Below are positions 11,697 to 37,980 of a stretch of DNA of 64,000 nucleotides, in pieces. The notes beneath the pieces were generated by a model. That model worked only from the letters and a program-made list of their open reading frames with translations. It was not told the DNA's origin and did no database searches. Position numbers and translations under genes: made by a program. Source of the stretch: an uncultured Aquimarina sp. (lineage in GTDB: Bacteria > Bacteroidota > Bacteroidia > Flavobacteriales > Flavobacteriaceae); assembly GCA_947497175.1 (NCBI GenBank), contig CANMFM010000002.1:293620-357619 (forward strand), written 5' to 3'. How positions within the stretch are numbered: position 1 is the stretch's first letter; every line of letters begins with the position of its first letter.

Positions 11697-13013
11697 ATGA
11701 AACCTTCAAATTTAAATTTATTTTTTTCATTTTTTTTACTAATTAGTATTTCATTAAATGCTCAAGAGTTATTAAGACGAGCAACTTTTGAGGCTAAAAT
11801 TAGCTGGCCAAACAATGAAACTCCAGGAGCTAAGATTGTCGAAATCACATCTAAATCACCATTGGATAAAGCAGGTTTTAAAGCTAATGATATCATCATA
11901 AGTGTGAATGATAGAATGGTTTTGAGTCAAGAAGATTGGAGCGCCATCACCTATAGTATAAGAGCTAATGAAGAGACCAATTTTGGAATCAAACGAGGCC
12001 ATATATATGTGTCAAAAAATGTACAACTCAATGCGTTGCCAAAGGAAATTCATGATAATACGGAAACTTATTATGAAACGCTAACTAGTGATTTTGGAAT
12101 AAAACAAAGAGTAATAATAACTAAACCTAAAAAGACCAAAAAGTATCCGGCCATTATTTTAATTCAAGGGTTAAGCTGTTCCACTGTAGAACAATATTCT
12201 GGCCGAAGTAACAATTGGGTTAAACTGATTAAAGATTTAGTGGAAAAGTCGAATATGGTCGTACTACGAGTTGAAAAGCCGGGTGTTGGTGATAGTGAAG
12301 GTGATTGCGGAAAAACCGATTTTAAGACAGAATTGAACGGATATGAATCAGCTATTAAACTCTTAAAGTCGAAGCCCTATGTAGACACTTCAAAAATAAT
12401 TGTGTATGGCAATAGTATGGGGAGTGCATTAGCCCCTTACTTAGCTAATAAATACGACTTAGCTGGCATAATCTCTGATGGTACATTTTTTAAATCTTGG
12501 TATGAACATATGCTAGAAATAGAACGTAGAATACTAAATATAGAAGGAAAAGATGAAGCAGAAATTTATAATTTAATGAATGAAGTTTACATACCATTAT
12601 ACTATGAAATGTTAATTAAGAAAAGAAGCTTTGAAGAAATTTTAGAAGATAACCAAACTTACAGAAAACACCATCGACAGAGTCTCAACCACATGTATGG
12701 TAGATCTATGAAATATTATCATCAAGTGCAGAATTTCAATTTTGCAAAAAATTGGGAAGAAATTAAAGTTCCCGTAAGGATACGGTGGGGAACAAACGAT
12801 TGGATAATGACAGAAAATGATAATGATATGATCATCGAGGTTTTAGAATCCACTGGACATAAAGACCATAAGCTATACAAATATCAAAATCTAGATCATT
12901 GGAGCACAATTCATACTGACTACAGTAGTAGTTATAACTTCAAACCTGGAAAATGGGAGGACAAAATTAGCCAACAGATCATCGATTGGGCTTGGGAAAT
13001 TATATCAAAATAG
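11697..13013 (+). CDS. Secreted alpha/beta hydrolase with N-terminal PDZ domain
   Basis: PDZ-like KIVEITSKSPLDKAGFKANDIIISVNDRMV; nucleophile elbow VYGNSMGSALAPYLA; LDHWSTIH. Confidence 0.82.
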   Translation: MKPSNLNLFFSFFLLISISLNAQELLRRATFEAKISWPNNETPGAKIVEITSKSPLDKAGFKANDIIISVNDRMVLSQEDWSAITYSIRANEETNFGIKRGHIYVSKNVQLNALPKEIHDNTETYYETLTSDFGIKQRVIITKPKKTKKYPAIILIQGLSCSTVEQYSGRSNNWVKLIKDLVEKSNMVVLRVEKPGVGDSEGDCGKTDFKTELNGYESAIKLLKSKPYVDTSKIIVYGNSMGSALAPYLANKYDLAGIISDGTFFKSWYEHMLEIERRILNIEGKDEAEIYNLMNEVYIPLYYEMLIKKRSFEEILEDNQTYRKHHRQSLNHMYGRSMKYYHQVQNFNFAKNWEEIKVPVRIRWGTNDWIMTENDNDMIIEVLESTGHKDHKLYKYQNLDHWSTIHTDYSSSYNFKPGKWEDKISQQIIDWAWEIISK

Positions 13014-13149
13014 CGAAAATAGATCTTTGAATACGAAAAGTGTTATGCTAACGACCTCGATACATTGTATCTTTATTTCTATTGTAATAACTATAACGCA
13101 TCTCGTACCATGTTATGAAATGATTTAGGTATTGTATAGTTTGTATGGG

Positions 13150-14562
13150 TTACTTCCCGATACAAAAATTAGCAAAGATGTTTCCTAATAAATCATCACT
13201 GGATATTTCTCCTGTAATTTCTCCAAAATGGTACAGTGCCTGGCGGATATCTATGGCCATCAAATCACCAGAAATTCCAGAATCTAATCCATACTGTACT
13301 TTTTGGATTTCTTCCAAAGCTTTTAGTAATGCATCGTAATGTCGTGTATTGGTTACGATGGTTTCATTGTTACGTAAAGCACCTGTATTTACAAATTCGA
13401 GAAGCATATTTTGTAATTCTTCGACTCCGGTATGTAGTTTTGCCGAAAGTAAATGAATATTCTCAATCTCTGAGGTTAATTTTGTTATTTGATCTTTGTC
13501 AAGTTTGTCAACCTTATTAGCGACTATAACCAAGGGTTTTTGAGGATACTTGTTTCTAATTTGATTGATTTCGATAATAATTTCTCTCACTCTGGAAGAG
13601 ATGCTAAGGGCTGAAGAGGATATTAATTGTGAGCTATCAACTAGATAAATCACCACTTGCGCTTGTTCAATTTTTTCAAAAGTCTTTTGAATACCGATAC
13701 TTTCAACTACATCTTTAGTATCACGTATTCCGGCGGTATCAATAAATCGAAATCCAATACCACCAATATTAATTTCGTCTTCAATAGTATCACGAGTAGT
13801 ACCCGCTATATCAGATACAATAGCTCTCTCTTCATTTAGTAGCGCATTTAAAAGAGTAGATTTACCCACATTAGGTTCTCCTACGATAGCAACTGGGATT
13901 CCATTCTTAATGACATTTCCTACGGCAAAAGAATCGACAAGACGCTTTAAAACATTGGTAATCCGGGTAATCAAATCTTTGAATTGAGAACGATCTGCAA
14001 ACTCAACATCTTCTTCGGCAAAATCAAGTTCAAGTTCTATAAGTGAAGCAAAATTTAACAGTTCCTCCCTTAATTTTTTAATTTCATTCGAAAAACCACC
14101 GCGCATTTGTTGCATAGCAATCTGATGAGAAGCTTCAGAATCAGATGCAATGAGATCTGCAACCGCCTCTGCTTGCGATAGATCCAATTTACCATTAATA
14201 AAAGCTCGTAAAGTAAACTCTCCGGCATTTGCCATTCGGCATCCTTTGCGTAATAATAATTGAATGATTTCCTGTTGGATATACGTAGAACCATGACAAG
14301 AAATTTCAATTGTAGGTTCGCCGGTGTACGAATTGGTTCCTTTAAAAATGGATATCAATACTTCATCTAATACCCGTTCTTTATCAACAATATGTCCTAA
14401 ATGGATGGTATGACTTTTTTGTTTCTCTAACGTTTTACCACTCACAGACCTAAACAAAGGTGAACAAATTGAGATGGCATCTTTCCCGGAAACACGAATA
14501 ACAGCGATTGCTCCAGCACCTGATGGTGTTGCCAGCGCGACAATGGTATCTTGTGAAATCAT
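13150..14562 (-). CDS. mnmE: tRNA modification GTPase MnmE
   Basis: DTIVALATPSGAGAIAVIRVSG start, GEPNVGKSTLLNALL, DIAGTTRDTIE, DTAGIRDT, NKVDKLDK, C-terminal NIFANFCIGK. Start placed at MISQ (14562) rather than the ORF-track M at 14583. Confidence 0.97.
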   Translation of the reverse strand: MISQDTIVALATPSGAGAIAVIRVSGKDAISICSPLFRSVSGKTLEKQKSHTIHLGHIVDKERVLDEVLISIFKGTNSYTGEPTIEISCHGSTYIQQEIIQLLLRKGCRMANAGEFTLRAFINGKLDLSQAEAVADLIASDSEASHQIAMQQMRGGFSNEIKKLREELLNFASLIELELDFAEEDVEFADRSQFKDLITRITNVLKRLVDSFAVGNVIKNGIPVAIVGEPNVGKSTLLNALLNEERAIVSDIAGTTRDTIEDEINIGGIGFRFIDTAGIRDTKDVVESIGIQKTFEKIEQAQVVIYLVDSSQLISSSALSISSRVREIIIEINQIRNKYPQKPLVIVANKVDKLDKDQITKLTSEIENIHLLSAKLHTGVEELQNMLLEFVNTGALRNNETIVTNTRHYDALLKALEEIQKVQYGLDSGISGDLMAIDIRQALYHFGEITGEISSDDLLGNIFANFCIGK

Positions 14563-14869
14563 ATCTTTCTTACTGAATCGCAAAAATAGAGATTAATCTA
14601 TTCACTTTAAGTACGCACTCTTAAACTTTTTTTGAGCAGTTGTTTTTCTTTTGTTATCTTGTGCATGGAATGAAGTAAAATACTTCTTTAGTATCTACAC
14701 TTTCCCCATTTTTGGGAAACAGAATTAAGAGAAAAATTAGGGTTCTGATAGTAAGCAAACTACGTAATATCAGATTCATTGGAAAACGATTTTGTTGTAA
14801 GATTCTTGCAGCAATTTTTTAGGTGCGTTCAATTTAATGTCTAACCAATACTAATTAATTCTTATTCTT

Positions 14870-27012: not shown

Positions 27013-30000
27013 ATGAATTTTCGTATTTCGATAATTTTTTTCTTTGTATGTATACTTATACATTCTTGTGCTACCTATCAACCCCAAATACAAGATTCGG
27101 TTATGGTTGATAATGTTGCAGATAAAGAGGTTTCTCATACCTTTTATGTGGTGGGTGGATTTGGAAATCAGGAGAAAGATAATTTTACAGCAGCATTAGA
27201 TGAAAAATTGTCTGCAGAACTTAAAAATGCTGATAAAAACAGCTCTCTCCTTTTTATGGGAGATAATATTTCTGAGAAAACAGGACAGAAAGAAAGAGAT
27301 TTTAAATTATTAGATAAGCAACTCTCTTTTGCAAAGGATTATAAAGGTGAAACGCTATTCATTCATGGCGTTAACGAATGGAAAGATGCCAATATTGATC
27401 AAATGGAGGAGTATGAGGATTATGTAGAAGAAAAGAAGTCATTAGATTCAGAATTTCCTGAAAAAAACGGTTGCCCAATAGAGCATATTGTTGTTAATGA
27501 TGAACTGGATATTATTGTGGTCAATTCGTATTGGTTTATTTCTAATTGGGACCGGATCGAAGAGATAAACAAAAAATGTACAAACGTAAATACAAGAAGG
27601 CGTTTTGCTGAAGAATTAGAAGGATATATTAATGATGCGCAAGGTAAGAATGTTCTTATCGTAATGCACCATCCAATTTTTAGCAATGGTACTTATGCAG
27701 GTCATGAGACATTGAAAAGTCATTTACTGCCATTACCAATTTTGGGGACTCTTACCGGAGAGGTTAAGGATTTAGCGAATTTAAATAGAGATCAATTAGA
27801 CTTTCCGAGATATAGATATTTAAGAATATTAGTAAGTTCTGTGGCTCAAAAATCAGATCGTGTTACCATCGTTTCGGGTCATGAAGAAAGTTTGCAATAT
27901 CTAGAAGGAAAAGGTATCCATCAAATAGTAAGTGGTTCGTATGGAGGGGCAGAGGCTACAAATCGCTCTAAAGGATTTATACATGCACCCGGTGGAAGTT
28001 TGTCTTACGAAGGGAAATATACGCACGGAGTACCCGGTTTTGCAAAAATTATATATTATAAAGACGGATCGTCTTCGGTAGATTTTATTACCGAAAATGA
28101 CAATAAAAAGAAATCCTTTAGCGTAATGTCACCTTTTGAAACCGCTAAGGATTATACGTATAAAGAAGAATCTCATCCCAGACAGAAAAAAGCAGTGATT
28201 ATTAAAGATGAAGTACTCTTAGATAAATCTGGATTCTACACATTTTTATGGGGTGATCGCTACCGTTCTTATTTCAATAAAGAAATTACTGTTCCTGTAG
28301 CCTTGTTAGACACATTATACGGTGGTTTGAAGGTGATCAAAAAAGGAGGAGGTCATCAATCTAATTCTCTCAGATTGGTGGATAGCCAAAATCGTGAGTA
28401 TGCCATGCGATCTCTTAAGAAAGAAGCCTTAAAGTTTTTAACACATAAAGTAAGAGGAATTTCCTATGATACTCAAGATTATGAAAACACGCTAACAGAG
28501 GATCTCGTTTCTGATTTTTTTACCACGGCTCACCCTTTTATGCAAATGGTAATCAATGATATGGCCAAGGCCTTAGATATTAATCACGCCGAAACAGAAT
28601 TGTTTTATATACCAAAGCAAGAGCGTTTAGGAGAGTATAATGCTACATTTGGTGATGAACTTTATTATGTAGAACGAAGACCTTCAGACGAACAGAAAAA
28701 ATACAAGGGATATAGAAGAGCACTACCTGATGTTGAGGGTGAAATAACGGATTTTGAAAGTACCACAGACGCTTTAGAAAAATTAAAAGAAGATGAATCT
28801 TATATTATGGATCAGGAAGCGTATATACGGGCAAGAATCTTTGATATGCTTATCGGTGATTGGGATCGTCATCAAGACCAATGGAGATGGATCGAATATG
28901 AAAAAGATGAAGGGGACGACAAGATTTTTATTCCGGTAGCAAGAGATAGGGATAATACATTTTCTAAGTTTGATGGTATTGCAATACCGATGATTAAAGT
29001 CTTTTCTCCCGCTACTCGACTTTGGCAAACGTATGGACCAGAAATTAAAAGTTTGAAATGGTTTAATGCCGAAGCCAATAATCTTGATCAAACTTTAATT
29101 ACAAAACATGGTGTTGATACCTGGATTAAAGAGGCAAAATATATACAGGAAAATCTAACAGATGCCGATATAGAGAAAGCGTTTACTAATTTACCGGCAG
29201 AAGTGCAGGATGAGACTACTGCTAAAATAAAAAATAGCCTTAAAGCAAGATTAAAAGTTGTTGACCAATATGCAAGCGAGTATGCGAGGTATCTCAATAA
29301 AACTGCAGTAGTACCGGGAACTCATAAAGACGACTTATTCGAAATTACAAGAATGCCAAATGGTAAAACAAAAATAGTCGGAAAAAGAAAATTGAGTGAC
29401 GAAAAAAATAAAGTCTTTTATGAACGTATTTTTGATAGTAAAGAGACTAAAAGAATCCTCGTTTATGGATTAAATGATGATGATACCTTTATAGTAAACG
29501 GAGACGGAGACGGATATAGTAAGGTAAAGATCATTGGTGGCTATGGTAAAGATGTTTACCAAATCGAGAATAAAAGGAAATTAAAAGTATACGACTGGAA
29601 ATTTGAAGAATCTAAATTTGAAGATAAAAAACCTAGCCGACAGCTTACTAACCTATATGAGACAAATACCCTGCATTGGAGATATTTTAAGGAAGATTTT
29701 AATATTGTTATGCCAACCATTGGATTGCGTAATGATGATGGTTTTTTCGTAGGATTATCCGATACATATACAATCTATGGCATTCATGGTGATGGTAAAG
29801 ATTTTAAGCAGAAACATACATTTGGAGGAAATTATTATTTCACATTTCAAGGTTTCGATCTTAATTACCAAGGAATCTTCGCTAATATTTTTCCGAATTG
29901 GAATTTAACAATCAATGGGTATTTCACCAATGAAGCCTATGCAAACAACTTTTTTGGTTTTGGAAATGATACCGAAAACTTCGATGATGATCTAAACCAG

Positions 30001-30726
30001 GATTTTAATAGAACTCAAATGCAACAAATAAAGATTGATGCGGGGATAAGCTACAGATCGTTATACGTAAAAGGACTTTTTGAATCTTTTAATGTTGGTC
30101 AAGATGAAGATAGATTTATATCAACTGGAGTTGTAAATCCTTTAGTTTTTGATTCTCAGAACTATGTAGGTGTAGAAACAGGTATTTCTTTTGATAGTCA
30201 AAATGCATTTGATTTTCCTACAAAAGCGCTGCTCTTTAATCTTTCTGGAGGGTATAAGCGCAATCTTGATATTACAAATAATGAGTTTGGTTATATCACT
30301 TTTGCTTTGGGCGGAAGTCATCAGCTTATTTCTTCAGGGCATTTGGTACTAGGAACTAAAGCTGAAGTAAAAGCCAATATTGGGAACAACTTTTTTTATT
30401 ATCACGCACCATCTATAGGAGGAGATAATGGACTAAGAGGGTTTAGAAATGAACGATTTACAGGAGAAAGTTACTTCTATCAGACTACTGATCTAAAAGC
30501 AAGAATCAAACGATTTACTACCTCTGTATTTCCGGTGACTTTTGGTACTTATGGAGGTTTTGATTACGGAAGGGTCTGGATAGATAATGACGATTCTAAT
30601 CAATGGCATACGTCATATGGTGGTGGATTGTGGATCAGCGGTGCAGATACTTTTTCCTTTAGATTAGGAATGTTTACATCAGATGAAGGCGTACAGGTAC
30701 AAGGAGGATTTGGATTCGAATTTTAG
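27013..30726 (+). CDS. Large metallophosphoesterase / outer-membrane barrel (BamA/TamA-like) fusion lipoprotein with kinase-like middle region
   Basis: Lipobox HSCATYQ; YVVGGFGNQE, FMGDNIS, NVLIVMHHPIFSNG, VSGHEES phosphoesterase motifs; C-terminal GGDNGLRGFRNERFTGESYFYQTTDLKARI and terminal aromatic strand GGFGFEF typical of Omp85-like barrels. Confidence 0.85.
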   Translation: MNFRISIIFFFVCILIHSCATYQPQIQDSVMVDNVADKEVSHTFYVVGGFGNQEKDNFTAALDEKLSAELKNADKNSSLLFMGDNISEKTGQKERDFKLLDKQLSFAKDYKGETLFIHGVNEWKDANIDQMEEYEDYVEEKKSLDSEFPEKNGCPIEHIVVNDELDIIVVNSYWFISNWDRIEEINKKCTNVNTRRRFAEELEGYINDAQGKNVLIVMHHPIFSNGTYAGHETLKSHLLPLPILGTLTGEVKDLANLNRDQLDFPRYRYLRILVSSVAQKSDRVTIVSGHEESLQYLEGKGIHQIVSGSYGGAEATNRSKGFIHAPGGSLSYEGKYTHGVPGFAKIIYYKDGSSSVDFITENDNKKKSFSVMSPFETAKDYTYKEESHPRQKKAVIIKDEVLLDKSGFYTFLWGDRYRSYFNKEITVPVALLDTLYGGLKVIKKGGGHQSNSLRLVDSQNREYAMRSLKKEALKFLTHKVRGISYDTQDYENTLTEDLVSDFFTTAHPFMQMVINDMAKALDINHAETELFYIPKQERLGEYNATFGDELYYVERRPSDEQKKYKGYRRALPDVEGEITDFESTTDALEKLKEDESYIMDQEAYIRARIFDMLIGDWDRHQDQWRWIEYEKDEGDDKIFIPVARDRDNTFSKFDGIAIPMIKVFSPATRLWQTYGPEIKSLKWFNAEANNLDQTLITKHGVDTWIKEAKYIQENLTDADIEKAFTNLPAEVQDETTAKIKNSLKARLKVVDQYASEYARYLNKTAVVPGTHKDDLFEITRMPNGKTKIVGKRKLSDEKNKVFYERIFDSKETKRILVYGLNDDDTFIVNGDGDGYSKVKIIGGYGKDVYQIENKRKLKVYDWKFEESKFEDKKPSRQLTNLYETNTLHWRYFKEDFNIVMPTIGLRNDDGFFVGLSDTYTIYGIHGDGKDFKQKHTFGGNYYFTFQGFDLNYQGIFANIFPNWNLTINGYFTNEAYANNFFGFGNDTENFDDDLNQDFNRTQMQQIKIDAGISYRSLYVKGLFESFNVGQDEDRFISTGVVNPLVFDSQNYVGVETGISFDSQNAFDFPTKALLFNLSGGYKRNLDITNNEFGYITFALGGSHQLISSGHLVLGTKAEVKANIGNNFFYYHAPSIGGDNGLRGFRNERFTGESYFYQTTDLKARIKRFTTSVFPVTFGTYGGFDYGRVWIDNDDSNQWHTSYGGGLWISGADTFSFRLGMFTSDEGVQVQGGFGFEF

Positions 30727-37608: not shown

Positions 37609-37686
37609 TAGGTTTCGCTTTTATTCTAAAGATACTTATTTTTAGGTGTTCTCTATATATTATGAGTATTGTATTTTGGTAATGAC

Positions 37687-37980
37687 GAAACCTTCCGCAA
37701 CCAATGTAATGCTCATTGTTGGGTGTTAGAAACCTTCCACAACCAATGTAACGCCCATTGTTGGGTGTTAGAAACCTTCCGCAACCAATGTAATGCCCAT
37801 TGTAGGGTTTTAGAAACCTTCCGCAACCAATGTAATGCTCATTGTAGGGTTTTAGAAACCTTCCGCAACCAATGTAATGCCCATTGTAGGGTGTTAGAAA
37901 CCTTCCGCAACCAATGTAATGCTTATTGTAAGATATTAGATATCTTCTGCAACCATTGCACAGCTTATACTACGAGATAA
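37687..37980. repeat. 42-bp tandem repeat array (6 full units plus 1 degenerate unit)
   Basis: Unit GAAACCTTCCGCAACCAATGTAATGCYCATTGTWGGGTKTTA at 37687, 37729, 37771, 37813, 37855, 37897; degenerate unit 37939-37980. Confidence 0.95.

Follow-up and report, generated by a model that had tools for sequence, protein, structure and literature searches.

What a single polypeptide carrying an apparent phosphoesterase, a kinase-like region and an outer-membrane barrel might do, and which of these parts are likely to be active, is the question raised by an open reading frame in a 64,000-nucleotide stretch of DNA (the window) from an uncultured Aquimarina sp.; Aquimarina species are also the nearest named relatives of the source genome. 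The reading frame (27013-30726, + strand) encodes 1237 amino acids and is a solitary gene: the flanking genes, one peroxiredoxin-like and the other threonine dehydratase-like, both lie on the opposite strand. The frame reported by the first-pass annotation and all the motifs that it quoted, such as FMGDN (27253-27267) and MHHPIF (27664-27681), are present, and profile matches together with the classification of the reading frames of relatives support its three-part architecture, namely a predicted lipoprotein comprising a phosphoesterase domain, a kinase-like middle domain and an Omp85 barrel. Three paralogs of the same length are encoded on other contigs of the genome (47, 39 and 38% identity); these whole-chain paralogs, the full-length relatives found across the phylum and the 89-100% conservation of motif residues in 122 relatives indicate that the motifs in the window are not due to chance. 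A sequencing or fusion artefact was rejected, as dozens of genomes carry the full-length form, and strong purifying selection acts on all domains. Elsewhere in the window, a short reading frame of approximately 13-residue repeats (37669-37980, + strand; TFRNQCNAHCRVLE) represents a tandem DNA repeat.

We then examined how these parts are combined across the Bacteroidota. Searches of 61 members of the family recovered relatives in 45 genomes, and those of 198 members of the phylum recovered relatives in 84, a count that includes matches to a single part only; the middle domain itself is present in 70 of the 198 sampled genomes, about a third. Classification of the reading frames by profiles yielded 89 proteins with all three parts, 23 combining the middle domain with the barrel and 17 with the middle domain alone, the rest being six solo phosphoesterases, six solo barrels and two proteins cut off by locus ends. 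Three consecutive genes at one locus (L076) specify the parts separately, as a middle domain of 519 aa, a phosphoesterase of 403 aa and a barrel of 388 aa. By the logic of gene fusion, the occurrence of these parts as a single chain in some organisms and as adjacent genes in others suggests that they are modules that work together.

The N-terminal module is a calcineurin-like phosphoesterase domain (27130-28107, + strand) with a degenerate metal site, as judged from a PF00149 match in the relative L008, a comparison of motifs and dN/dS ratios. While a Pfam scan returned no PF00149 match for the window protein, relatives such as L008 (3e-11) and L118 (2e-8) are matched, and the homology of the window copy is clear from its full-length alignment with relatives. 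Most of these retain the classical series IGDAGN, LGDN, PGNHDW, HHP and SGHEH, against which the window protein displays VVGGFG, MGDN, HGVNEW, HHP and SGHEES. The metal-binding Asp of motif I (27148-27165), the Asn and His of motif III (27364-27381) and the second His of motif V (27874-27891; all + strand) have been lost, leaving GDN and HHP as the only complete classical metal-ligand motifs; the window copy hence lacks the complete ligand set of active-type enzymes (GD...GDN...GNHD/E...HH...GHxH). The calcineurin-type motifs claimed by the first-pass annotation were accordingly real in part but over-read, and its designation of the protein as a phosphatase, which is supported for most relatives with their intact motifs, fails for the window copy because most of its metal-site ligands are gone. 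Most of these ligands are also missing in the Aquimarina relatives and in a wider clade that includes the paralog L002, and the phosphoesterase appears intact in the other two copies in the same genome (L003 and L004). A tree of the middle domain places this degeneration at several points (four changes). With most of its metal ligands lost, the phosphoesterase of the window copy is probably a pseudophosphatase, though one that is constrained (dN/dS about 0.04-0.06, an approximate value as synonymous sites are near saturation).

The C-terminal module (29713-30723, + strand) is an Omp85-family barrel, preceded by a beta-rich linker with the motif IGGYGKD (residues about 800-900; 29410-29712, + strand), which is delineated from the sequence and a low-confidence model. 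The window copy matches NCBIfam NF047779 (2.3e-10, under the curated cut-off of that model) and PF03865 (6.5e-4), and PF01103 is matched above its cut-off in relatives (2e-12 and 2.5e-15). It bears the (V/L)RGF motif of the Omp85 superfamily as GLRGF at residue 1140 (30430-30444) and ends in the expected aromatic residue, Phe. The "pore" of the first-pass annotation hence holds to the extent that the barrel is Omp85-like. Pfam scans detected no POTRA families; Omp85 subfamilies devoid of POTRA have been accepted (Heinz and Lithgow 2014, PMC4104836). At the N-terminus (27013-27069, + strand) lies a predicted signal peptide with a lipobox-like ILIHSC that ends in Cys19 and has an atypical His at position -2.

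Surface lipoproteins of the Bacteroidota carry an acidic export signal after the lipidated Cys. Such a signal is missing from the window protein (CATYQP); a strict lipobox pattern was found in 48 of the 89 full-length relatives, which typically continue as C-A-T/S-Y/F/H, and 38 of these 48 have no acidic residue at positions +2 to +6, which favors a periplasmic location. We weighed this against the possibility that the barrel serves to expose the soluble domains at the cell surface, as suggested for PlpD-type Omp85 proteins, and that these domains act on extracellular targets. The passenger-plus-barrel layout would fit such display, for which PlpD is a precedent discussed in PMC4104836, but most relatives lack the acidic signal, the standalone versions have an N-terminal membrane anchor, and the kinase and phosphoesterase can be encoded by separate genes with their own signals, independently of any barrel. 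We therefore regard surface display as distinctly unlikely.

The middle domain (residues about 400-765; 28210-29307, + strand) was delineated by conservation, profile matches and the Foldseek matches of a core structural model. Conservation, counted over 122 non-redundant relatives of three architectures, is concentrated in a series of motifs on the + strand: a glycine-rich loop KKGGGHQSNSL (28339-28371; G445/G446, 93%) followed by R466 (93%) and K470 (96%; at 28420), the element as a whole extending over 28339-28422; D501 (95%), P508 (99%), and R608 and D611 (99%); a catalytic-loop-like GDWDRHQDQW (28855-28884; D616 98%, W617 95%, D618 93%, R619 97%, H620 89%, Q623 92% and W624 98%) that aligns with GNFDRHNGNW of the kinase CtkA; a metal-binding, DFG-like PVARDRDNTF (28933-28962; D645 92%, R646 93% and D647 93%); and, close to where the C-lobe helices end, R746 (29248-29250; 100%). 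The motifs have been lost in a small number of divergent relatives, L095 among them. The order is that of a kinase, with a Gly loop, a basic residue, a catalytic-loop Asp, a metal-binding Asp and a helical C-lobe, all of them conserved, and Arg466 may occupy the usual position of the VAxK lysine. The first-pass annotation had staked its kinase reading on the conservation of GDWDRH and RDRD among homologs, and both motifs proved to be conserved in the 122 relatives.

Comparison with known kinases produced several weak pointers in the same direction. The Pfam and NCBIfam libraries contain no family that matches the middle domain above threshold, and none of the known kinase families was matched significantly, all scores falling under curated cut-offs. 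The Fam20C model PF06702, for which the ortholog L034 is the sole match across the 198 genomes, hits the kinase region of that protein, with 20.4 bits as the best score of any relative against a cut-off of 26.8; other family members yield weak Pfam matches that include CotH and HipA_C, with best E-values, both short of the respective cut-offs, of 0.019 for PF08757 (CotH) and 0.094 for PF07804 (HipA), each in two of 76 members. In profile searches of the PDB, the best coherent match is CtkA, a HipA-like kinase: the full alignment recovers it precisely in the region of the catalytic loop (GDWDRH versus GNFDRH; E 0.21), the standalone relatives recover it along 150 residues (E 0.039), and it returns in a further search at 0.059, where HDAC6 is level with it; all E-values exceed 0.03, and no single statistic is conclusive. 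Profile-profile comparisons with HipA and CotH gave scores not above those of block-shuffled controls, which are harsh as they keep the motifs; a comparison with the second kinase-like family (k2, below) likewise yielded no clear relationship. A profile search of the 198 genomes recovered the window protein family alone, with no bridge to HipA or other known kinases. A HipA_C match in one genome (G138) was dropped as a candidate bridge, since its protein combining the kinase-like domain and the barrel (L091) has no HipA_C match, and scans of viral contigs for a deeper alignment returned pattern matches but no relatives. Separately, the PADLOC candidate-defence model PDC-M03A, which carries no description, weakly matches residues 586-631 (3e-5; window 28768-28905), that is, the region of the catalytic loop.

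AlphaFold models of the middle domain, a longer one and a core one, both built from five close sequences, are of low confidence (pLDDT 42 and 48, respectively). With the core model, ranks 1-18 of the Foldseek search are all kinase folds of several families, including MPH, the Fam20 Golgi casein kinase (best probability, 0.47), COQ8A, p38 and ZAP-70, at E-values above 0.07. The longer model, kept as a control, retrieved unrelated proteins such as HIV RT and Sec61, with a single kinase, HipA, at rank 16. The structural comparison proposed by the first-pass annotation thus points to kinases with the low-confidence core model but not with the longer one, and its kinase-like reading of this region is backed by conserved residues and several independent, if weak, pointers rather than by an individually significant match or a confident structure. 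Based on the above, we consider the middle domain very likely to adopt a kinase-like fold and, with less assurance, likely to be catalytically active.

We accordingly examined two readings in which this domain is not a functional kinase. In one, GGG..K, DWDRH and RDRD would be part of some other enzyme or binding fold, unrelated to kinases, that resembles them by convergence; the want of a significant sequence match, the failure of the decoy-controlled profile comparison to rise above its controls, the poor structure models and the parity of HDAC6 with CtkA in one PDB search are all in keeping with this, but the weak pointers from different methods all lead to kinases and the motifs occur in the right order, making convergence quite improbable. 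In the other, the domain would be a pseudokinase with a binding or scaffolding role, and the protein would mainly serve as a scaffold or assembly factor in the outer membrane, in line with other Omp85 proteins, which usually assemble or translocate proteins (PMC4104836). The degenerate phosphoesterase of the window copy indicates that the chain tolerates dead enzymes. Further, ATP is normally absent from the periplasm, which counts against a periplasmic kinase. Nevertheless, in the 122 sequences the middle domain is most conserved at its catalytic-type residues, whereas those of the phosphoesterase decay, and the domain persists in the 23 proteins without a phosphoesterase and the 17 without a barrel; on balance, we think a pseudokinase unlikely.

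We hence favor, as the probable explanation, an outer-membrane-anchored, periplasmic, atypical kinase-like transferase that is paired with a phosphoesterase in most relatives. Anchoring would be provided by the C-terminal Omp85-type barrel and probably also by an N-terminal lipid, and the soluble domains would be held in the periplasm, a placement suggested by the signal sequence, by the lack of an acidic tag for export and by standalone versions that carry a membrane anchor. The middle domain would belong to the protein-kinase-like superfamily as an atypical member, its motifs most resembling those of the HipA/CtkA and Fam20 branches. Its most likely activity would be to use a nucleotide as donor of a phosphoryl or nucleotidyl group for an envelope molecule, which we infer to be a lipid, glycan or protein. 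In most relatives, the intact phosphoesterase on the same chain might reverse this reaction or process its product. With the metal site of its phosphoesterase lost, the window copy would supply only the transferase half, and the dead domain would be kept for a structural or regulatory role.

Few bacterial kinases work outside the cytoplasm, and for those that do the source of the nucleotide becomes a question. There is no nucleotide transporter next to the window gene, and TLC transporters, which occur in 15 of the 198 genomes, are not generally linked to its family. A parallel is offered by a different, unclassified kinase-like lipoprotein of about 565 aa (hereafter k2), with the motifs YLIKF, NDTDRRDANT and QDFG, which compares with the HipA profile better than all 31 controls. 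Its genes (L118:3951-5657 and 12939-14636; L202:6722-8404; L200:8583-10550; L201:8826-10496) adjoin the same barrel type in four genomes; in L118 and L202 they are flanked by both this barrel and a phosphoesterase, which was not found beside k2 in L200 and in L201, the latter having the barrel and k2 only. The recurrence of the same partners with a second kinase-like family strengthens the view that kinase and barrel, with or without a phosphoesterase, form a functional unit. TLC ATP/ADP-transporter-like genes adjoin k2 in L118, L200 and L202, hinting at a possible route for ATP into the periplasm and suggesting an ATP supply that can be tested.

Gene neighborhoods provide further context. Recurrent neighbors of the relatives encode PycTM or HD-PycTM proteins, class III cyclases, the polyphosphate kinase PPK1 and SixA-like phosphatases. 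PycTM occurs in 62 of the 70 genomes with the middle domain as against 14 of the 128 without it (p 2e-28, a value inflated by shared ancestry), and, across the 198 genomes, of the 76 PycTM genes that middle-domain-bearing genomes contain, 44 are at most 5 kb from a member of the window gene family, where rough arithmetic predicts fewer than one by chance. PycTM genes, often fused to an HD domain, adjoin relatives in dozens of Bacteroidota genomes (L196:9120-10346, L199:8111-9295, L079:2294-3529, L109:11044-11610 and others), apparently constituting conserved chromosomal loci. The source genome has two PycTM genes, both adjoining intact paralogs, one on contig 20 (0.9 kb away) and one on contig 6 (1.7 kb away), and there is none on the contig of the window copy. 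At L106, L108-L115 and L117, relatives have a TPR-repeat class III nucleotide cyclase as a neighbor at a distance of 63-265 bp, and in several of these loci PycTM comes next, as a Pycsar-like pair. PPK1 and SixA-like phosphatase genes recur beside the kinase-like/barrel genes (L079:4042-6090, L088:3422-5512, L100, L101, L102, L103, L107 and L116). Paralog 4 (L196:7442-11887) lies in a cluster with a CotH kinase, an HD-PycTM and a GH3-family gene overlapping the paralog start. A CotH gene is located about 3.6 kb from a paralog on contig 6.

The recurrence of the three parts suggests a hitherto unrecognized way of attaching phosphate to envelope molecules. It is conceivable, though we offer this only tentatively, that they define a family of kinases spread throughout the phylum and tethered to the outer membrane, in many cases fused to a counteracting phosphoesterase, that would mediate reversible periplasmic phosphorylation in the Bacteroidota and be coupled to inner-membrane PycTM/HD or cyclase proteins as an envelope signaling or defense module. 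A kinase-like domain joined to a phosphoesterase and an outer-membrane barrel would make envelope phosphorylation in a major phylum accessible to direct test, and the close PycTM linkage connects the family with proteins hitherto considered mainly as phage-defense effectors.

Among described systems, the closest in architecture is the "Metallo" subfamily of Omp85/TpsB proteins, in which PF00149 (termed a metalloprotease in that study) lies N-terminal to a POTRA-less barrel, just as in the window family, and the standalone barrels of L076 and L118 are similar to its "noNterm" group (Heinz and Lithgow 2014, PMC4104836). The word "kinase" is absent from the main text of that paper, and we found no description of a kinase-like domain in phosphoesterase-Omp85 proteins in the open-access text searched; hence, while the combination of phosphoesterase and Omp85 has been known since 2014, the kinase domain within it appears to be undescribed. 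With Pycsar (PycC cyclase and PycTM effector) the resemblance lies in the PycTM genes, some with an HD domain or beside class III cyclases, that adjoin relatives; however, PycTM is a neighbor and not a homolog of the window protein, and is absent near the window copy. CotH kinases (PF08757) are likewise bacterial and extracytoplasmic, but profile comparison revealed no relation to the middle domain. HipA/CtkA (PF07804; PDB 3akj) lacks a threshold match and differs in that the Asn of the metal loop is replaced by Gln in the middle domain, which is also extracytoplasmic and has no HipB partner, yet it shares the DRH-type catalytic loop (GNFDRHNGNWGF versus GDWDRHAKQWGW) and a helical C-lobe with a conserved Arg region at its end. 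Finally, although relatives of the middle domain score under the curated cut-off of the Fam20 secretory-pathway kinases (PF06702; PDB 4kqb), which have been reported as specific to eukaryotes or Metazoa (PMC9758233), these kinases similarly act outside the cytosol, give the best Foldseek probability and supply the only family model that reaches an ortholog of the window protein.
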